DNA from: Lentilactobacillus senioris DSM 24302 = JCM 17472
Lineage (GTDB): Bacteria; Bacillota; Bacilli; Lactobacillales; Lactobacillaceae
Direction: 5' to 3'
Assembly: GCF_001436555.1 (NCBI RefSeq)
Contig: NZ_AYZR01000009.1
Location: forward strand, 124,001-188,000
Length of the DNA stretch: 64,000 bases
In this document: positions 12,847-42,108 of the stretch, in pieces
How positions within the stretch are numbered: the stretch's first letter is position 1
How the letters are laid out: every line of letters starts with the position of its first letter
Notes under the pieces: generated by a model
Told to the model about the DNA's origin: nothing
Seen by the model: only the letters and a program-made list of their open reading frames with translations
Databases searched by the model: none
Translations under genes and position numbers: made by a program

Positions 12847-12880
12847 AAAAAGAGATAGCTTTCTAGCTATCTCTTTTTTT
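12847..12880. terminator. Terminator of asnA
   Basis: A 10-bp perfect stem AGAGATAGCT / AGCTATCTCT around TTCT, with an A-run on one side and a T-run on the other. It serves asnA on the minus strand and could also stop plus-strand read-through. Confidence 0.85.
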
Positions 12881-13886
12881 AGAGTAAATGAATTCCTGCT
12901 GCTTCACATTCATCAATCATTGCTTGGGGCCAAATACTAGCTTGCACTTCACCTACGTGCGCTTTACCTAGCAAGAGCATGCACACCCGAGACTGGCCAA
13001 TGCCGCCACCAATTGTGTACGGTAATTTGCCGTTCAACAAAGCTTGATGAAACGGAAATTGAATTCGATCTTCAGCATCGTAGAGCTTCAATTGTTTTAA
13101 TAAAGTCTCTTCATCCACTCGAACTCCCATACTAGAGATTTCAATGGCCCGTTGTAATGGTTCATACCAGAATAAAATATCCCCGTTTAACTCCCAGTTA
13201 TCATAATCTGGAGCTCGAAAATCATGCTTTTCACCAGATTTAAGGTAGCCACCAATTTGCATCAGAAAAACTGCACCTAACTCTTTGGTAATGGCATTTT
13301 CACGCTCTTTCGGGGTTTTATCTGGCCAACGGTCTTCCAATTCTTGCGTGGTAACAAAATGAATTTGATCTGGTAAGTGATGAACTGCGGCTGGATATTG
13401 ACTAGCTACTTCGCTTTCTACGTGTTTCATTACCTGAAAAATTTGTTCGACCGTTGCACGTAAGGTTTGCTCGTTAAGCTCATCTTTGGCAATTACCTTT
13501 TCCCAGTCCCACTGATCAACATAGATGGAGTGGAAGTTATCTAAATCTTCGTCTTTCCGAATTGCATTCATGTTAGTGTATAAACCTTCGTGCATTCCAA
13601 ATCCAAATCTGGCTAAAGCCATGCGTTTCCACTTGGCTAGGGAATGAACAATTTCAATTCGATGACCAGGCAACCCCACCATTGTGAAGTTAACCGGTGT
13701 TTCAGTACCGCTTAAATTATCGTTTAATCCAGTATCATGATCAACAAACATTGGTGCAGATAATCTGGATAAATTTAATTGCTTGCCAAATTCATTTTGA
13801 AATGTGTCGCGGATGAAGCGAATCGCCTCTTGGGTTTCACGTGGAGAAAGTTTAGCATCATAATCGGTGGGAATAACTACTGGCAT
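12879..13886 (-). CDS. asnA: Aspartate--ammonia ligase (asparagine synthetase A)
   Basis: 335 residues from the ATG at 13886 ([19 protein letters not shown]), preceded by AAAGGATC. The longer frame runs back through the T-box terminator and is rejected. It is a class-II-synthetase-like enzyme making asparagine from aspartate, ammonia and ATP. Recognisable are the SAPMFV segment, the [11 protein letters not shown] helix, [12 protein letters not shown] and the C-terminal [19 protein letters not shown] motif. Its length matches bacterial AsnA. Expression is controlled by the upstream T-box with an asparagine specifier. Confidence 0.96.
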
Positions 13887-13919
13887 AATATCAGATCCTT
13901 TTTTTAAATTTACAAAATA

Positions 13920-14178
13920 AAAAAGCCCCTCATCCCTTCTGACAAGGGACGAAAGACTTTTCGCGGTACCACCCAAGTTTCTTGCATACACAAGACACTC
14001 TAATACGTACTAACATACGCTCCGGTAGTAACGTTCCGACGACGTCAACACCTACTTTGCATTCGCATTTCAGTATGAAACTTAGAGAGTGTTATTCGAT
14101 TAAGCCGCAACTAAATGGGTTTTCACTAGTTCCCATCTCACTGATAGTGCCTGCCTAATGTACTTGTCTCTCATACGT
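13920..14178 (-). promoter_or_regulatory. T-box riboswitch (tRNA-Asn) controlling asnA
   Basis: The conserved T-box GGTGGTACCGCG lies at 13973-13962 on the minus strand. It is followed by a 15-bp terminator stem with wobble pairs (arms in 13920-13961) and a T-run. The base helix of stem I pairs GAGAG (14172-14168) with CTCTC (14089-14085). An AGTA S-turn lies on the 5' side and the codon AAC (14093-14091) on the 3' side, flanked by A, which is the expected specifier position. AAC reads asparagine, which fits the regulated gene. Uncharged tRNA-Asn would open the terminator. The rest of the 13887-14388 gap (14179-14388) holds only probable promoters. Confidence 0.93.
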
Positions 14179-14388
14179 TTTTATTTTGTTGAATATTATC
14201 TTATCATATTCCCATTTCATTGCAACCATTAAATTATAACTAATCTCATTTTATGATCGTTTCACTAATCAAGAGCCCTTTCCCTCTTACTAGTCGACAT
14301 TCATTTAGTTGAGCGTTTTATCCTACATTACTTTTAATTTGTTCTATACTTAGTTTAGTAGCATTATTTGTTTTAGGGGGAATTACAT

Positions 14389-20218: not shown

Positions 20219-20563
20219 CTAAATCTGTAACCCCAACCACAACAAACTCCAGCCCCCTACATAACTAATTACAAGGTAGGCAAGTAAGCGGCCCCAACTT
20301 CTAGCATTGATCAGCATCGCCGCTTCATTCATAAACGTCGAAAAAGTAGTGAAACCTCCCAAGGCTCCCACCCCTAGCAGTAACCAAATTGAATCGCCCC
20401 AACCTTGCGCTAGTAATAACCCCATCAAAAAACAGCCGAGTAAGTTAATCACCAATGTTGCTACCGGAAAGGTAATTAAGATGTACTTTTTGACCAAGTT
20501 AGAAATACCGTAGCGAGCGCTAGCCCCCACCATCGCACCGCCACCAACTAGTAATAGGTTCAT
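20219..20563 (-). CDS. crcB: Fluoride channel subunit CrcB/Fluc (copy 1)
   Basis: 114 residues, four membrane helices. Family signatures are GGGAMVGASARYG at the start, FPVATLVINLLGCFLMG and GALGGFTTFSTFMNEA, where the TTFSTF segment lines the fluoride path. The antiparallel dimer exports fluoride passively. Overlapping the second crcB by four bases suggests the two gene products form a heterodimer. It is the last gene of the operon. Confidence 0.93.
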   Translation of the reverse strand: MNLLLVGGGAMVGASARYGISNLVKKYILITFPVATLVINLLGCFLMGLLLAQGWGDSIWLLLGVGALGGFTTFSTFMNEAAMLINARSWGRLLAYLVISYVGGWSLLWLGLQI

Positions 20564-20946
20564 ACCGGTCGCCTCCGTTCTACTAATCGGCGGCTAAGCC
20601 AAATAGCGGCCCAACTAATTAGTAGGCCACCAAATAAGCTAATGCCATCATATATAAATGCTAACCCATACTGGTGGTGTAAAAACATTTGTAGTGTTTC
20701 GTTACTAAAGGTAGAAAAAGTGGTCATAGCGCCGACAAAACCAGTCCCCATACCTACCACTACGCTGCTAGGTAGCTTGCTAACTTCACCAACATAGTGA
20801 CTAATAAACGCTAACAAAAAACAGCCCACTAAATTCACCACTAAGGTAGCTACCGGAAAACCGTGCGTTGGAGCTAACCACAGGCTAATTCCATAGCGAG
20901 TGATGCCACCAAAAAAAGCAAAGCAGGCAACTGCTAAGTAATTCAT
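20560..20946 (-). CDS. crcB: Fluoride channel subunit CrcB/Fluc (copy 2)
   Basis: 128 residues with the same four-helix plan: GGITRYGISL, FPVATLVVNLVGCFLLAF and GFVGAMTTFSTFSNET. A short arginine-rich tail ends the protein. Its start overlaps the stop of the DUF190 gene by one base, and its end overlaps the next crcB. Paired crcB genes are usual in Gram-positives and give heterodimeric fluoride channels. Confidence 0.93.
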   Translation of the reverse strand: MNYLAVACFAFFGGITRYGISLWLAPTHGFPVATLVVNLVGCFLLAFISHYVGEVSKLPSSVVVGMGTGFVGAMTTFSTFSNETLQMFLHHQYGLAFIYDGISLFGGLLISWAAIWLSRRLVERRRPV

Positions 20947-21602
20947 TAATGTTTCTCTCCTTCATTTTTAATTACTAAACTAGCGCTAGTTTTAAATACC
21001 ACGCCCTCGGTAACTGCGGTTTCTAACTTCGGCAACAGAGTTTGAGCTTGTTGTTCGGTCATAAAAATATCAATCACCACCGGTACGTTTTTGCTAAATG
21101 AAAACTTGGGGCTATATTGTTTGTGTTCCTTACCAAAGCCTTTGATTCCCTTAGTCACCGAAACCCAATCAATTCCGGCTTCTTGCAACGTATTCAAGAC
21201 AACATCTAAATCAGCTTTGCCGTCACTTTGCTTAACGTTTTTCATAAAAATTTTGACATTCATGTAATCGCTAAGATTATTCTTCAATTTGTCATCCGCC
21301 TCCTCCGGTATCGTTGTAACTTCACCACGTTCCACCATCGATTTAATGGTTGGCAGCACTTGAACTAGTTGCTCATTGGGTAAGACGGCTTCTAAAATCA
21401 ATGGATCGTTATTAAAAGCAGAATCTTCTAAAACATTATCTTGGCGAGCTGTATAATCTGCTAACCCAGTCAAGCTTCTTCTGACCGTTAAGCCAGCCAC
21501 TTGTTTCTGCCATAAATATCTTTGGATTAGTGTTGCAACGTTTCCCGTCTGATTGTGCGACATTTCTGGCACTAAGACCCGTAATAACGTTCGATTAGCC
21601 AT
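20946..21602 (-). CDS. Tandem DUF190 protein of the fluoride operon
   Basis: 218 residues containing two ferredoxin-like DUF190 modules, at about 1-100 (YLWQKQVAGLTVRRSLTGLADY) and 110-212 (TLQEAGIDWVSVTKGIKGFG). DUF190 is a PII-like fold often encoded next to crcB, where it is suspected of modulating the channel. The fused two-module form and its first position in the operon are clear from sequence. The role is inferred from context. AAAGGGG lies upstream of the ATG at 21602. I see no fluoride riboswitch before it. Confidence 0.8.
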   Translation of the reverse strand: MANRTLLRVLVPEMSHNQTGNVATLIQRYLWQKQVAGLTVRRSLTGLADYTARQDNVLEDSAFNNDPLILEAVLPNEQLVQVLPTIKSMVERGEVTTIPEEADDKLKNNLSDYMNVKIFMKNVKQSDGKADLDVVLNTLQEAGIDWVSVTKGIKGFGKEHKQYSPKFSFSKNVPVVIDIFMTEQQAQTLLPKLETAVTEGVVFKTSASLVIKNEGEKH

Positions 21603-21631: not shown

Positions 21632-21661
21632 TTGACGAATGGTACCTAACTAGCTTAATAT
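21632..21661 (+). promoter_or_regulatory. Promoter of the trpXYZ-type operon leader
   Basis: TTGACG (21632-21637) and TAATAT (21656-21661) with an 18-base spacer (or TTAATA with 17). Transcription would begin about 25 bases before the leader ORF. Confidence 0.6.
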
Positions 21662-21693
21662 TAAAATATTCTCACACGAAAGGAAAGATTACT

Positions 21694-21735
21694 ATGACTA
21701 ATTGTTATGTACTTCAAACTTGGCAAAGCCGGTAA
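21694..21735 (+). CDS. 13-residue leader peptide of the trpXYZ-type operon
   Basis: The ORF reads MTNCYVLQTWQSR from an ATG at 21694, with GAAAGGAAAG upstream at normal spacing, and ends at TAA 21733-21735. It holds one Trp and one Tyr codon. The last two codons (AGC CGG, 21727-21732) are the sequence AGCCGG. That sequence can pair with CCGGCT in each of two downstream terminators, so ribosome position on this ORF could decide which structure forms. Translation and ligand sensing are not demonstrated. Confidence 0.55.
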   Translation: MTNCYVLQTWQSR

Positions 21736-21888
21736 CAAGTCACATCGATTCGGATGCGGCTTGATCTTGTTGCGATCAAAAACGCATCCGAGCCGGTAAT
21801 CTTTCACTAACTAAGGCTGGTCGGATGAAATCCGGCTGGCCGCTTTTTTTCGAGCAATTCCGCCACCGGCTGGATTGCTCGTTTTTTT
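21725..21888 (+). promoter_or_regulatory. Leader attenuator with two tandem terminators
   Basis: An 8-bp stem CGGATGCG / CGCATCCG (21751-21758 with 21783-21790) encloses a TGATC/GATCA stem. Terminator 1 spans 21815-21850 (GGCTGG and CGGAT arms, T7). Terminator 2 spans 21851-21888 (CGAGCAAT / ATTGCTCG, T7). AGCCGG occurs at 21727-21732 and 21791-21796, and its complement CCGGCT lies inside both terminators (21832-21837, 21866-21871). This permits exclusive folds. No T-box GGTGG element is present. This fills the 21603-21933 gap. Confidence 0.65.
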
Positions 21889-21933
21889 CGCTGAATTTTG
21901 ATCACCCACTTTGAAAAGAAAGAAGAAAAAACT

Positions 21934-22932
21934 ATGAAACGAATGTACGGCCTTATCATCATCCTACTAGTATTTTTAGGAGTAGCGTTTGTCAAAGAAC
22001 AACCCACTTCCTCTCAACAAATTAACAAAACTCCCACAGTTGGGATCTTACAGTTAATGTCTCACCCCGCCTTGGATGCCATTCATAAGGGAATCGTTGC
22101 CGGCCTAAAGGACGGCGGCTACACCGAAGGTAAGAACTTGAAGATTGATTTTCAAAACGCTGAAAATGATCAGAGTAACCTGAAAACCATGAGCACCAAG
22201 TTTGAAAATGAAGACACTGATATTTCAATTGGAATTGCTACCCCAGCGGCTCAGGCATTAGCCAACACTATCACTAATCGTCCGGTAATTTTAGGAGACG
22301 TTACCGATCCTAAGGGTGCTGGTTTGGTTCAAAATAATAAACGCCCAGGTGGCCACATCACTGGCGTTTCTGATCGAGCACCCCTTAAACAGCAACTAGG
22401 ATTAATCAAACAATTAATGCCTAAGCTCAAAACACTAGGCATCATTTACACCTCCAGCGATGATTCCGCCGTAGCCCAATACAAACAGTTCGTTCAAATG
22501 TGTCAAAAAGAGCACATCCAATATAAAGCCTACTCCATCACCAACTCTAATGACTTGAATCAAGTAGCTCAAAAAGCAGCTGGCTCAGTGGATGCGATTT
22601 ATGTTCCCACCGATAACACCATCGCCGGGGCTATGAGCACCCTATCCGCTGCCGCTGATCAACAAGGGATTCCGGTTTTCCCAGCTGTGGATACCATGGT
22701 GAAAAACGGGGGCCTAGCTACTTATAGTGTCGATCAATACCAAACCGGAGTGGCGATTGGTAAAATGACCGCCAAAATTTTAAAGGGTAAGGCTAATCCA
22801 GCCACCACACCCATCCAATTTGTCGACACCGGTAAACTGATTATCAACGAAAAGCAAGCCAAGAAGCTAGGTATTAATATTCCTGCTAACTTAATTCAAG
22901 AAGCCAAAACGAAGGGAGAACTAATCAAATGA
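21934..22932 (+). CDS. ABC transporter substrate-binding protein, TrpX-like
   Basis: 332 residues from the ATG at 21934 (MKRMYGLIIILLVFLG). The frame is open from 21898, but the upstream start would lie next to the terminator. A signal-anchor helix occupies about 4-21, without a lipobox cysteine. The mature part is an ABC_sub_bind (DUF534-type) domain: VGILQLMSHPALDAIHKGI, IGIATPAAQALAN, VTDPKGAGLV, YVPTDNT and QYQTGVAIGKMTAKIL. In streptococci and lactobacilli this family with a TrpY/Z pair is predicted to import tryptophan. Here the ligand is inferred. The end overlaps the permease start by four bases. Confidence 0.8.
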   Translation: MKRMYGLIIILLVFLGVAFVKEQPTSSQQINKTPTVGILQLMSHPALDAIHKGIVAGLKDGGYTEGKNLKIDFQNAENDQSNLKTMSTKFENEDTDISIGIATPAAQALANTITNRPVILGDVTDPKGAGLVQNNKRPGGHITGVSDRAPLKQQLGLIKQLMPKLKTLGIIYTSSDDSAVAQYKQFVQMCQKEHIQYKAYSITNSNDLNQVAQKAAGSVDAIYVPTDNTIAGAMSTLSAAADQQGIPVFPAVDTMVKNGGLATYSVDQYQTGVAIGKMTAKILKGKANPATTPIQFVDTGKLIINEKQAKKLGINIPANLIQEAKTKGELIK

Positions 22933-23819
22933 GTATAATCGTATCTGCAATCGGCCAAGGCCTCATTTGGGGCGTCATTGGGTTAGGCCTCTTCTTAACC
23001 TTTCGCATTCTAGACTTTCCGGATATGACCGTAGAAGGCACTTTCCCATTGGGGGCTGCGGTGTGTGCCGCTGCCGTTTCTCACGGGGTATCTCCCATTT
23101 TAGCTACCCTGTTAGCTTTTGGCGCCGGTACTTTAGCCGGCCTAGCTACTGGACTACTTTACACCAAGGGCAAAATTCCCATTTTATTAGCCGGAATCTT
23201 AGTAATGACCGCTACGTATTCTATTAATTTACGAATTATGGGCCGGGCTAACCTTTCCCTATACGGCAAACACACTCTATTCAATGGTCAGTTCCTAAAC
23301 TCATTACCACCATATTTTAATAGTGTGGTTTTGGGCTTAATCATCATCGCTATTATCACCGCCATCATTATTTACTTTCTCCAAACTAACCTTGGACAAG
23401 CTTTTATCGCCACTGGTGATAATCCAACCATGGCCAAATCTTTAGGTATCAGTACTGACAACATGCAAATCATGGGTGTCGGGGTTTCTAATGGTTTAAT
23501 TGCCTTAGGTGGCGCTTTAGTTGCCCAAAACAACGGTTTTGCCGACGTCAACATGGGAATCGGCGTGATCGTGGTGGCATTAGCTTCGATTATTATTGGC
23601 GAAGTGGTATTTGGAGAATTAACGATGAATCAACGCTTAATTGCTACTACCCTCGGGAGTATCCTTTATCGTTTCGTGATTTTAATTGTCTTAACCCTTG
23701 GCTTTAATGCTAATGATTTAAATTTGATTTCAGCTATCGTGTTAGCAATCTTTATGATGGTCCCAGCGATGGAAAGTCGCTTTAGACTTAGACACACGTT
23801 CTTAAAAGGGGGTAAGTAA
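22929..23819 (+). CDS. ABC transporter permease, TrpY-like
   Basis: 296 residues with about eight to nine membrane segments, a branched-chain-type (BPD_transp_2) permease. The start MSIIVSAIGQGLIWGVIGLGLFLTFR and the segment ATGDNPTMAKSLGI are typical of this group. It is translationally coupled to the binding protein (ATGA) and to the ATPase one base downstream. It forms the membrane channel of the probable tryptophan or amino-acid importer. Confidence 0.85.
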   Translation: MSIIVSAIGQGLIWGVIGLGLFLTFRILDFPDMTVEGTFPLGAAVCAAAVSHGVSPILATLLAFGAGTLAGLATGLLYTKGKIPILLAGILVMTATYSINLRIMGRANLSLYGKHTLFNGQFLNSLPPYFNSVVLGLIIIAIITAIIIYFLQTNLGQAFIATGDNPTMAKSLGISTDNMQIMGVGVSNGLIALGGALVAQNNGFADVNMGIGVIVVALASIIIGEVVFGELTMNQRLIATTLGSILYRFVILIVLTLGFNANDLNLISAIVLAIFMMVPAMESRFRLRHTFLKGGK

Positions 23820-23820
23820 A

Positions 23821-24594
23821 ATGACCACTCCATTACTAGAACTAAAAAACGTGGTGGTAACCGTAAATGCGGGAACCGCTGAAGAACTAAACATTATGGA
23901 TCACCTCAATTTAACCATTAATCAAGGCGACTTTATTACCGTCCTTGGGACCAACGGTGCTGGTAAATCTACTTTATTCAACGTTATCGGCGGCGATTTG
24001 CCAATTACTAGCGGTCAAATTTTGCTTAATGGCAAAGATATTTCCCACTTAAGCGTCGAAAAGCGGACCCGCTTTTTAAGTCGTGTTTTTCAAGATCCCA
24101 AGATGGGAACGGCTCCGCGAATGACGGTAGCAGAAAACTTACTGCTGGCCCAAAAACGGGGACAGCGAAGAACTCTCCTTCCTAGAAAGCTCAAGCAACA
24201 ACTACCTTCTTTTGAGGAACTAACGGCTACTATGCCTAACGATCTTCATGAGCGCCTAAATACTCCAACCGGTAAACTTTCTGGTGGCCAGCGCCAAGCC
24301 CTTAGCTTCTTAATGGCCACGGTGAAGCGGCCAGATATCTTATTGTTAGATGAACATACCGCTGCCTTAGATCCTAAAACCTCGACTGATTTAATGCGCA
24401 TCACCAACCAACGGATTACCGAAGAACGGCTTACTTGCTTAATGATTACTCACCACCTAACTGATGCCCTTCAATCTGGTAATCGGTTAATTGTATTAAG
24501 CCACGGCCAGATTGTCTTTGACGTCAACGGACAAGCTAAACAAGATTTAACCCAAGAACAGCTTTATGATTACTTTAGTGATTTAGCTGATTAA
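23821..24594 (+). CDS. ABC transporter ATP-binding protein, TrpZ-like
   Basis: 257 residues. Walker A GTNGAGKST (near 42-50), signature LSGGQRQALSFLMA, Walker B ILLLDEHTAALDPKT with histidine where most ABC proteins have proline in the DEP motif (the DEHTAALDP form is common in this subgroup), and H-loop THHLTDAL. Energises the upstream permease. Last gene of the operon, followed by a terminator. Confidence 0.88.
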   Translation: MTTPLLELKNVVVTVNAGTAEELNIMDHLNLTINQGDFITVLGTNGAGKSTLFNVIGGDLPITSGQILLNGKDISHLSVEKRTRFLSRVFQDPKMGTAPRMTVAENLLLAQKRGQRRTLLPRKLKQQLPSFEELTATMPNDLHERLNTPTGKLSGGQRQALSFLMATVKRPDILLLDEHTAALDPKTSTDLMRITNQRITEERLTCLMITHHLTDALQSGNRLIVLSHGQIVFDVNGQAKQDLTQEQLYDYFSDLAD

Positions 24595-39910: not shown

Positions 39911-39921
39911 ACAAGTATCAT

Positions 39922-40071
39922 ACAACTATCTGGGGTGCCTAACGGCTGAGAAACACCCATCGAACCTGATCTGGTTAGTACCAGCGAAGGGAGCATATTC
40001 CGTTGTATTCCGAATGGATAATAATGCTAGATGAAGTGGGCGCAGTTCGTTAACTCGGACTGCGCCTTTTT
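39922..40071 (+). promoter_or_regulatory. TPP riboswitch (THI element) with terminator
   Basis: P1 pairs ACAAC (39922-39926) with GTTGT (40002-40006). The conserved core has GGGGTGCC, CTGAGA and ACCC, then GAACCTGATCTGGTTAGTACC and AGCGAAGGGA. An expression-platform terminator (GGCGCAGTTCG / CGGACTGCGCC, T5) spans 40038-40071. TPP binding should turn the ykoEDC operon off. With the promoter, this accounts for the 39763-40104 gap. Confidence 0.96.
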
Positions 40072-40104
40072 GGTTGCATGAAATTTATTTTGGAGGTTGT
40101 TGTC

Positions 40105-40665
40105 ATGAAACAACAACGTTGGTCTTTACGTAATATCATTTTAATTGCTTTAATCGCAATTTTTTGCGGTTTGATTTTCTGGGGAGCAGGATTCTTATAC
40201 ACCGCCCTTACAGTTGCTTTGACACCTTTAGGAATGGCGCCCTATGCTAACGATATTTTAATGGGGCTGTGGTGCATGGCCGGTCCGCTAACCGGTTATA
40301 TCATCCGGATTCCAGGTTCTGCCTTTTTAGGTGAGTTCTTGGGCTCTGCAGTGGAGGTTTTTCTAGGTGGTCAATGGGGAGCTAGTGCGTTTATTTCTGG
40401 GTTGGTCCAAGGGATTGGTTCAGAACTTGGATTTACCTTAACTGGCTATAAACATTATGACTGGTTAGGTTTAAGTGCCTCAATTTTGTCTACTACCATT
40501 ATTACCTTCGCCTGGGATTGGTTCCGTAGTGGTTACAATCAATATGGAGCCTTAATGTTAATCGGTTTATTTGTGACCCGGTTAATTTCCACATTTGTAT
40601 TCGCAGGTTTATTAACCCGTTTAATCACTAATTTGTTAGATCGCAGTCAAGTGCTAAACCGCTAA
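40105..40665 (+). CDS. ykoE: ECF transporter S component YkoE (thiamine precursor)
   Basis: 186 residues from the ATG at 40105 (GGAGG eight bases upstream). The frame extends back to 40078 without a ribosome site. Six hydrophobic segments, with LYTALTVALTPLGMAPYANDILMGLWCMAGPL and FLGEFLGSAVEVFLGGQWGA typical of YkoE. It is the substrate-capturing subunit for hydroxymethylpyrimidine or thiamine, as shown by the TPP riboswitch upstream and the YkoD/YkoC energising genes downstream. Confidence 0.92.
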   Translation: MKQQRWSLRNIILIALIAIFCGLIFWGAGFLYTALTVALTPLGMAPYANDILMGLWCMAGPLTGYIIRIPGSAFLGEFLGSAVEVFLGGQWGASAFISGLVQGIGSELGFTLTGYKHYDWLGLSASILSTTIITFAWDWFRSGYNQYGALMLIGLFVTRLISTFVFAGLLTRLITNLLDRSQVLNR

Positions 40666-40677
40666 GTAGGTGCTAAA

Positions 40678-42108
40678 ATGACCCAAGTTACCCTTTCAGA
40701 TTTTTCATTTCAATACGCTAAAGCTGACCAACCAACTTTAAGCCACTTAAACCTTACCTTTCCTAGCGCTCAATTTAACCTGTTAATTGGTCCATCCGGA
40801 AGTGGCAAGACTACCTTATTAAAATTTATCGCTGGGTTGTATCCACAATTCATCGAGCAACCAGCCAGTGGCCAAATTTACTTTGACGACCAAGAAATCA
40901 ATTCACTAACCGCTATGGCAAAAAATCATTTGGTCGGTATGGTCTTTCAAAATCCCAACCAGCAATTCGCCATGGATACCGTCGAAAACGAACTCACCTT
41001 TGTGCTTGAGAATATGCAAGTAGCACCGGAGAAAATGAATAATTTAATCGATTACGCCCTGGATTTTTGCGGGGGAACATCACTAAAAAACAGATTATTA
41101 AACACCCTTTCCGGCGGTGAAAAACAACGAGTCGCTTTAGCCTGCATCGTGGCTATGGATCCAGCGGTAATCGTTTTGGATGAGCCCTTCGCCAGCATTG
41201 ACCCACATACTAGACAAGACTTAATTGAAAAACTCAAACAACTGCAATTACACCACCAGAAAACCATTATTTTAGCTGATCACGACTTAAGTGATTACGC
41301 TGACGTAGTTGATCAGGTGTTTGAACTCGATCCTCAAACCCACCAACTCAGTGAGTTAAACTCGCTGGAAACGCAACAACGATTCGAACGGTTCAACCAA
41401 AACATTAACGCTCACCAAGCCGTTTCATTGCCAAACGCTTCCTTGGTCAGTTGCCTAACCCTTAATCAATTCAGTTTGGCTCCCCATGGGGTAGAATTAA
41501 TTACACCCACCCAGTTTGATTTTTATCAAGGACAGACTACGTTGATCACTGGCGAAAACGGAATTGGTAAATCAACCCTTTTTGCAGCGTTAACCAACTT
41601 AATTAACTATCAAGGCAATATCACTTATTTAGACCATAATATTGCTAAGCTCAAGGCTAAATCATATGCTTTGGAAGTTAGTTTTCTCTTTCAAGACGCC
41701 GAAAACCAATTTTTATCTATTACAGTAGGTGAAGAATTAGCCTTAGCTAAAAAATATCGACGGCACTTTAAATATTCAGACGTGCAAATTCAAACGATGT
41801 TAGACCAATTAGGGTTGGCTGGCCGCGAAACCCAAGTGGTATATTCCCTGAGTGAGGGGCAAAAGAAAAAACTCCAAATCATTGTGATGCTTATTATGGC
41901 CAGTCCGGTACTCCTATTGGATGAGCCGCTGAAAGGTTTAGATCTTGCCTCAGTCAAAATTGTGGTAGAACTACTGCAACAAGCTAAACATCTCTTTAAC
42001 CAAACTCAAATTATCATCAGTCACCAACTTACTGGTTTAGCCCCATTAATCGATTTACACGTACTATTTAAAGACCACCAACTAACTTATCAGGAGGTGT
42101 TAGGATGA
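40678..42108 (+). CDS. ykoD: ECF transporter ATPase YkoD (two fused ABC domains)
   Basis: 476 residues. Domain 1 has Walker A GPSGSGKTT near 38-46, signature LSGGEKQRVALA and VIVLDEPFASIDP. Domain 2 has GENGIGKST near 293-301, signature LSEGQKKKLQI and [12 protein letters not shown]. It is the energising module of the thiamine-precursor importer. Both domains appear catalytically competent. It ends overlapping the permease gene by four bases. Confidence 0.93.
   Translation: MTQVTLSDFSFQYAKADQPTLSHLNLTFPSAQFNLLIGPSGSGKTTLLKFIAGLYPQFIEQPASGQIYFDDQEINSLTAMAKNHLVGMVFQNPNQQFAMDTVENELTFVLENMQVAPEKMNNLIDYALDFCGGTSLKNRLLNTLSGGEKQRVALACIVAMDPAVIVLDEPFASIDPHTRQDLIEKLKQLQLHHQKTIILADHDLSDYADVVDQVFELDPQTHQLSELNSLETQQRFERFNQNINAHQAVSLPNASLVSCLTLNQFSLAPHGVELITPTQFDFYQGQTTLITGENGIGKSTLFAALTNLINYQGNITYLDHNIAKLKAKSYALEVSFLFQDAENQFLSITVGEELALAKKYRRHFKYSDVQIQTMLDQLGLAGRETQVVYSLSEGQKKKLQIIVMLIMASPVLLLDEPLKGLDLASVKIVVELLQQAKHLFNQTQIIISHQLTGLAPLIDLHVLFKDHQLTYQEVLG

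Follow-up and report, generated by a model that had tools for sequence, protein, structure and literature searches.

A candidate ribosome-mediated attenuator upstream of trpXYZ in Lentilactobacillus senioris and its likely kinship with the RF04312 trpB motif

Within the 64,000-nucleotide stretch of Lentilactobacillus senioris DNA analyzed here (the window), genes for a substrate-binding protein, a permease and an ATPase follow a leader rich in structural elements (Table 1). The product of the first gene, trpX, scored above the NF041285 cut-off, in agreement with an earlier sequence-only reading that had proposed a TrpXYZ-type transporter at this position. The Shine-Dalgarno (SD) sequence, 13-codon ORF, long hairpin and two terminators which that reading listed before the binding-protein gene were all found as claimed. 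The promoter that it named is also there, with 9 of 12 consensus matches; shuffled sequence gives 0.9 sites of this grade on average, so the site is weak as sole evidence. To this list were added three helices, i.e., helix A, which pairs the leader start with a downstream strand, helix 1:2 and helix 3:4. A pattern scan for terminators listed T1 and not T2, because the loop of T2 is longer than the scan allows; in a near-identical L. senioris locus (L024; L numbers denote loci), whose permease is identical to that of the window's trpX operon, T2 has a folding energy of -16.0 kcal/mol. No trpB gene scored above the cut-off in the strain's own genome (best match 31 bits versus 392), and the strain therefore probably depends on imported Trp. 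Positions 20219-21602 on the minus strand hold a divergent gene with DUF190 and P-II matches, followed by a CRCB gene and a second look-alike (by eye).

Table 1. Elements of the trpX leader and operon in window coordinates; OFF and ON refer to the two helix sets described in the text.
Element	Position	Strand	Remarks
Promoter-like TTGACG-N18-TAATAT	21632..21661	+	9/12 consensus matches; weak alone
Shine-Dalgarno AAAGGA of leader ORF	21679..21684	+	
Helix A, 5' strand, SD-proximal	21683..21692	+	partner 21796-21805, 10 Watson-Crick pairs; hides leader start region
Leader ORF MTNCYVLQTWQSR, then stop	21694..21735	+	sensor UGG 21721-21723; stop UAA 21733-21735
Helix B, 5' strand, in leader codons	21728..21732	+	partner 21793-21797, one G-U
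Segment 1, immediately 3' of stop codon	21736..21746	+	partner 21753-21763, 10/11 pairs
Segment 2	21750..21763	+	21750-21758 with segment 3 (outer stem of hairpin 2:3, 9 bp, all nine Watson-Crick); 21753-21763 with segment 1
Segment 3	21783..21793	+	OFF: 21783-21791 with segment 2, 9/9 pairs
Segment 3 in ON	21786-21793	+	partner segment 4 at 21819-21826, 7/8 pairs
3' strands of helices B and A	21793..21805	+	21796-21797 common to both here
T1 (segments 4:5) and U tract	21815..21850	+	21815-21826 with 21830-21841, 12 pairs; U tract 21844-21850
T2 and U tract	21851..21888	+	21851-21858 with 21874-21881, 8-bp outer stem; U tract 21882-21888
RF04312 'trpB ncRNA motif' match, sub-threshold	21747..21852	+	33.8 bits, gathering 59
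trpX, tryptophan ABC transporter substrate-binding protein	21934..22932	+	NCBIfam NF041285, 470.8 bits, cut-off 390
Permease, trpX operon	22929..23819	+	BPD_transp_2; trpY by position
ATPase, trpX operon	23821..24594	+	ABC_tran; trpZ by position

A scan of named genomes for relatives of the permease returned 273 stretches, of which the best 80 were kept, 79 of these with DNA upstream of trpX. A short leader ORF enters UGG in frame in all 79 of these relatives from the best 80 of 273. The Trp codon and its frame are kept across relatives, in support of the leader ORF proposed earlier: an ATG with an SD-like motif is open into UGG in 75 of the 79 loci in frame 0, versus 1 and 0 of 79 in the other frames. 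For the alignment A1, 68 of 102 loci with a leader were used, 34 being removed as more than 96% alike; L070, whose contig starts inside trpX, was left out. The leader search pattern, which was designed after the sequences had been read and gave a single match in 77 of 79 loci, contained TGGC, so that the invariance of UGG (68/68) is partly built in. As picked, ATG and UGG are 7-14 codons apart, the value of 7 (L102) being due to a mis-picked start, and the stop follows UGG after 3 to 8 codons (9 to 24 nt). The leaders carry one Trp codon (53 of 68) or two (15 of 68). Around W, N at -3 and S at -1 each occur in 36 of 68 leaders and Q follows W in 65 of 68; the Ser at -1 is encoded by both AGT and TCN codons. 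In L099, L096 and similar loci the stop codon comes four residues later (peptides ending WQSRPFRL and WQSRHCGL), which places segment 1 inside the coding region with the spacing from UGG unchanged.

Results from a model-free helix scan of the 68 leaders in A1 showed T2, 2:3, 3:4, 4:5, B, 1:2 and A as the top seven helices. They form two sets, which exclude one another (barring pseudoknots) because 3:4 uses segment 3 of 2:3 and crosses A, B and 4:5. The OFF set (A, B, 2:3, 4:5 and T2) was paired in 87.0% of cells, compared with 30-41% in slid-partner controls, with two-sided changes in 29 of 37 pairs and 0 of 500 shuffles on all five measures; these and the following shuffle counts are not probabilities, because the rows of A1 are related by descent. 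With T2 left out, the OFF set was paired in 86.6% of cells, with two-sided changes in 21 of 29 pairs and at most 3 of 500 shuffles. The ON set (1:2, 3:4 and T2) was paired in 87.9% of cells (slid controls 27-42%), with two-sided changes in 17 of 22 pairs; without T2, these values were 87.4% (slid controls 23-43%) and 9 of 14, and 0 of 500 shuffles reached the covariation score, while two of the five measures were reached by 17 and 37 of 500. Helices A and 1:2 were paired in 77.6% and 77.7% of cells, respectively, figures that we count against the reading. RNAalifold on A1 returned 2:3, part of 3:4 and a small UGG hairpin (16 pairs), i.e., neither full set.

The sequence-only reading had placed the switch in a pairing of AGCCGG, at the end of the leader ORF, with CCGGCT inside both terminators. 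These motifs are present (AGCCGG at 21727 and 21791, CCGGCT at 21832 and 21866), but exact complementarity occurs in only 3 of 68 leaders for T1 and in 1 of the 63 in which T2 was found. This candidate was rejected as not conserved; the leader GCCGG pairs instead in helix B, with the strand adjoining segment 3, where 5 of 6 pairs have two-sided changes. Thus, the idea of mutually exclusive pairing set by the ribosome survives in the conserved, exclusive and suitably placed helices, and the AGCCGG:CCGGCT pairing is not among them; the original observation is real, and its interpretation was right in kind and wrong in the pairing.

The front edge of a translating ribosome lies about 13 nt past the first base of its A-site codon. 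Counted from the first base of UGG, the core of segment 1 starts at 13-18 nt in all 68 leaders, and its end falls within -3 to +9 nt of the stop codon even though the UGG-to-stop distance varies from 9 to 24 nt. Segment 1 should consequently remain accessible while UGG occupies the ribosomal A site, and be covered once the ribosome is at the stop codon. We propose, with a probability of roughly 0.9, that the leader regulates trpXYZ as a ribosome-mediated transcription attenuator, with charged tRNA-Trp as the signal sensed. As RNA polymerase makes the leader, segment 1, just after the stop codon, would pair with segment 2. When Trp-tRNA is scarce, the ribosome would stop on UGG, its front edge not quite reaching segment 1, so that 1:2 persists, segment 3 is free for segment 4, T1 (4:5) is blocked and transcription continues (ON); in this state, segment 5 could pair with the 5' arm of T2. 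When Trp-tRNA is plentiful, a ribosome at the stop codon would cover segment 1, upon which 2:3, 4:5 and T2 would form and transcription would terminate (OFF). Once the ribosome has been released, or where translation does not occur, helices A and B would hide the leader start and hold segment 3, giving a default OFF state. Direct comparison shows the leader ORF with its reading frame, the covarying helices, their spacing in the present leaders and the match between codons and genes in homologues; the order of events, the kinetics, the default-OFF step through helices A and B and the response to Trp are inferred. Of the earlier proposal of a ribosome-dependent attenuator rather than a T-box, the conserved in-frame ORF and the exclusive helices stand, and the AGCCGG:CCGGCT pairing does not.

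Stepwise folds, in which the ribosome was placed on UGG or at the stop codon and 1:2 was retained, differed between the two positions as expected. At the end of segment 4, 3:4 was present in 64 of 68 leaders with the ribosome on UGG versus 30 of 68 with it at the stop codon; at the end of segment 5, these counts were 24 and 0 of 68. T1 formed in 42 of 68 versus 66 of 68. Even with 1:2 held, 42 of 68 leaders, L024 included, therefore have 4:5 prevailing over 3:4 by the end of segment 5. Equilibrium folds with ribosome masks did not reproduce the switch: 2:3 beat 1:2 whatever the ribosome position, and the mean probability of 3:4 with the ribosome on UGG was 0.03-0.15. Folding under alternative constraints, which had been put forward as a check, thus gave the expected difference in stepwise folds at segment 4 and partly at segment 5, and did not show the switch at equilibrium. 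Because both the equilibrium folds and those at the end of segment 5 favor 2:3 and 4:5, the switch would have to be kinetic, a race during transcription. Pairing of segments 1 and 2 had a median energy of -13.7 kcal/mol, compared with -4.5 kcal/mol when segment 1 was shuffled; 1:2 formed in 68 of 68 leaders, but at least 5 pairs also formed in 903 of 1360 shuffles, which makes this a weak test.

T1 has a U-rich tail in only 25 of 68 leaders and hence is not a terminator everywhere. Two terminators in series, which had been noted as unusual, proved to be a conserved layout among the RF04312 matches described below: a second terminator-like hairpin lies within 110 nt in 101 of 122 matches with Trp leaders, compared with 0 of 168 shuffled stretches, and also in 20 of 26 with Phe/Tyr leaders, 2 of 3 with Leu leaders, 0 of 8 with His leaders and 0 of 9 with no ORF. 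Segment 5 and the 5' arm of T2 paired better than shuffled controls (p<=0.05) in 31 of 63 leaders; this was not so in L024 (p 0.22). In L025 and L028, from L. kisonensis and L. rapi, T2 and trpX are separated by roughly 250 additional bases that contain a repeated hairpin-like element.

A permissive Rfam scan of the leader gave a match to RF04312, the trpB motif, with an E value of 0.003-0.004, aligned to model positions 1-107. The leader is homologous to RF04312 and yet no formal member, because its score is below the gathering threshold; matches before trpX-like genes range from 74 bits down to the 33.8 bits found here. Narunsky et al. published this class in 2024 as a strong riboswitch candidate (SRC-39-1) with more than 900 representatives, found mostly before an uncharacterised ABC transporter and sometimes before trpB, and they allow that a protein factor or a classic attenuator might be involved, as set out in the available sections of their paper (PMC11109978). 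The likeness to the present leader extends to the hairpin (2:3 corresponds to P1), an antiterminator in the right shoulder of P1, a terminator with a U run (T1) and the position in the 5' UTR of an amino-acid ABC transporter or trpB (here trpX); those sections of the source make no mention of a leader ORF, a second terminator or helices of the 1:2 or start-hiding kind (PMC11109978). The name RF04312 was absent from the literature within reach of our search, which excluded most subscription papers and supplements. At E<=0.001, RF04312 was found in 20 of 60 relatives and in 0 of 24 genomes of the strain's own genus; at wider ranks it was found in 159 of 295 genomes (order), 19 of 398 (class) and 4 of 398 (phylum). 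R1, a model that we built from 45 of the 68 leaders and that starts one codon before UGG, had matches at E<=0.01 in 155 of the 201 genomes of the family; in the strain's own genome it matched a single place.

Since the RF04312 model does not span the ORF, its matches provide a test of the attenuator reading. We took 139 matches and 29 from one family of another class, i.e., 168 among those listed; they were not de-duplicated, and they partly overlap A1 (e.g., L117 is the same genus-level locus as L064). A narrow rule for SD sequence, start codon and position, applied to the 139, gave leaders with Trp (119), Phe/Tyr (8), His (1) or other codons (6; in three of these, L113, L225 and L229, Trp lies further up) and 5 with none. 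A slightly wider rule, applied to all 168, gave Trp 122, Phe/Tyr 26, His 8, Leu 3 and none 9. A leader ORF was thus found by rule in 159 of 168 matches (one spurious) and by eye in one more, L301, which is 'none' by rule though its peptide is Phe-rich. The spurious case is L241, whose Phe/Tyr label is an edge artefact and whose protein groups among the TrpX proteins with Trp leaders. The remaining eight (L131, L132, L133, L137, L138, L166, L170 and L178) score 38-48 bits, have no fitting ORF and precede unrelated genes or none that was found; we take them as chance hits, which are still in the denominators. When the ORF rule was applied at shifted places around the first 99 loci, it gave Trp in 16 of 769 and Phe/Tyr in 7 of 769 cases, and on shuffles 42 of 1980 and 19 of 1980, respectively.

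The sensor codons follow the downstream genes. A TrpX-like gene lies downstream of 120 of the 139 matches, and in the TrpX-like cluster (121 of the 168) 114 leaders have Trp and 7 Phe/Tyr, one of the latter being the spurious L241. All five trpB genes (4 scanned) have Trp leaders and all eight hisS/hisZ-like genes have His leaders. The 16 genes for NSS-type transporters have Phe/Tyr leaders in 12 cases and Leu in 3, with 1 none by rule; the three Leu-leader proteins apparently form their own type, by eye. Phe/Tyr leaders also precede three of three TrpY-like permeases (named by eye), three of three LIVCS-type (BrnQ-type) genes and, as a Tyr/Phe leader, one locus with aroE and then DAHP synthase. 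The genome of L169 has two copies about 3 kb apart, one with Trp in front of a TrpX-like gene and one with Tyr/Phe in front of aroE. Two loci with Trp leaders (L104 and L126) have no long ORF in the stretch covered. Family scans covered 3 of the 8 His-leader genes (L127, L296 and L304), 3 of the 16 NSS-type genes (L136, L298 and L305) and 1 of the 3 LIVCS-type genes (L299); the hisS, hisZ and LIVCS matches were below curated cut-offs, and several proteins were cut to 260 residues. In a tree of 130 TrpX-type proteins, made by a quick method and with long branches flagged, five rows with Phe/Tyr leaders stand together on one side of a branch (SH-aLRT of 100), opposite the rows with Trp leaders, and these five paralogues score 269-384 on the TrpX equivalog, whose cut-off is 390. 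Altogether, the UGG before trpX and the codons that follow genes in homologues point to Trp as the amino acid sensed at the present locus, where the sequence-only reading had named Trp or another amino acid. As side observations, the Phe/Tyr leaders of the LIVCS-type genes (L299, L306 and L311) are odd, since this family is named for branched-chain amino acids, and they hint at an aromatic substrate for that LIVCS/BrnQ subgroup; furthermore, 439 nt on from the best-scoring RF04312 match (L139, 86.6 bits, Trp leader) lies an ORF that resembles a group II intron reverse transcriptase, by eye.

A further variant came from second R1 matches in three genomes of one genus of the family (four loci), where the peptides end in IRLRSR before the stop codon. 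The Trp copy of the same genus ends in ARWQSR, and in the Arg-rich copies CGC CTG CGA replaces CGT TGG CAA. These copies precede a family-3 binding protein (three loci) or an OppA-like protein (one locus), and the one family-3 protein scanned had as its best match the Lys/Arg/Orn type TIGR01096, at 112 bits and below the cut-off. The signal for these copies is probably Arg; Leu is also present in the peptide.

These results bear on whether the element might instead be a metabolite-binding riboswitch with an incidental ORF, as the ranking of the trpB motif among strong riboswitch candidates would have it (PMC11109978). We regard this as very improbable: the ORF is kept in frame and is present in 38 of 38 examined RF04312 loci with at least 59 bits, all with Trp; its codons follow the downstream gene; A1 shows conserved alternative helices, with no separate conserved core seen; and the authors themselves allow a classic attenuator in the available part of their text (PMC11109978).

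Among the homologues, pairing of the 1:2 type exceeded that of shuffles (p<=0.05) for Trp leaders in 109 of 122 cases, for Phe/Tyr in 25 of 25, for His in 7 of 8 and for Leu in 3 of 3. Counted from the first sensor codon of the peptide's end, the core of segment 1 starts at 13 nt or more in 114 of 122 leaders with Trp, in all 25 with Phe/Tyr, in all 3 with Leu and in only 4 of 8 with His; counted from the last sensor codon, it does so in 42 of 122, 0 of 25, 0 of 3 and 0 of 8, respectively. The spacing rule fails at the last codon, and stalls at later sensor codons would therefore cover segment 1. The homologue spacing thus fits a stall at the first sensor codon, and does so poorly for His.

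Stalling might also come about in another way. Arrest peptides of the TnaC type halt the ribosome by way of the nascent chain in response to free Trp, and the partly conserved residues before W (N at -3, S at -1) and the near-constant W-Q would suit such a peptide. However, homologous leaders carry runs of Phe/Tyr, His or Leu codons or an Arg-rich end, as tRNA sensing predicts, the bases that encode WQSR also form helix B, and an importer should be on at low rather than high Trp. An arrest peptide is accordingly very improbable here.

In the E. coli trp attenuator the parity is opposite, i.e., stalling there does not keep 1:2, whereas here it would keep 1:2 and thereby the antiterminator 3:4. 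Proteobacterial attenuators, as described in the accessible text of PMC9413887, have leader codons for the regulated amino acid, and the ribosome selects terminator or antiterminator; both features are common to the trp and his attenuators of that phylum and to the present leader, which differs in its start-hiding helix, tandem terminators and often single sensor codon. For the Bacillus cereus group, Peptostreptococcaceae and Erysipelotrichales, the same text describes proposed his leaders whose peptides carry three to five His codons; these resemble the present class in having leader peptides with His codons before his genes, but are described there by lineage and for his genes (PMC9413887).

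It is likely, judging from the comparisons above, that RF04312, rather than being a riboswitch, makes up the 3' half of a modular ribosome-mediated attenuator, a single homologous unit present in the Lactobacillales and in at least one family of another class in the same phylum. Its sensor codons would have been exchanged (Trp, Phe/Tyr, His, Leu and probably Arg), which would let a single scaffold act before importer genes, genes of aromatic biosynthesis, trpB and hisS/hisZ-like genes. The result would be a counterpart to the T-box that works through translation, has a helix hiding the start of its own leader and often has tandem terminators. This offers an identity for a published RNA class of more than 900 members for which a ligand had so far been lacking in the text available (PMC11109978), and it turns the hunt for a ligand into a question of codon exchange. 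It also suggests that Firmicutes can reuse one scaffold for leader-peptide attenuation, much as they do with the T-box, and leader codons would let the substrates of poorly known transporters (TrpX paralogues, NSS and LIVCS types) be guessed.

A leader under TRAP control would carry a run of (G/U)AG repeats. The T-box is the other system that the sequence-only reading had considered, without seeing its motif at this locus, and its absence was borne out: RF00230 had no match before trpX at the gathering threshold or in a permissive scan to E 10, and none before trpX in 20 relatives scanned, where the single T-box found lies elsewhere on the other strand. T-box identity was therefore rejected. 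In Streptococcus suis, the available text of PMC9382623 assigns trpXYZ to a T-box riboswitch with tRNA-Trp as signal and control at the level of transcription; the transporter, the signal (as proposed here) and the level of control are alike, whereas that T-box senses tRNA by direct contact and needs no translation. A divergent T-box or other direct sensor of tRNA-Trp, with UGGC pairing to the tRNA 3' end, would account for the nearly invariant UGGC at the sensor site, and the S. suis trpX T-box has a UGG specifier and a UGGC T-box sequence (PMC9382623). The UGGC of the present leaders, however, sits in a frame that is kept open and is missing from the Phe/Tyr, His and Leu peptides, and there are no T-box matches of the kind just described, which leaves direct tRNA sensing as the least probable of the explanations weighed. 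Elsewhere in the window, a T-box above the gathering score lies at 13942-14184 (minus strand), followed by an ORF at 12879-13991 that resembles asparagine synthetase AsnA by eye, and a TPP riboswitch at 39921-40010 is followed by an ECF membrane component and a double ATPase (by eye; 40078-42108).
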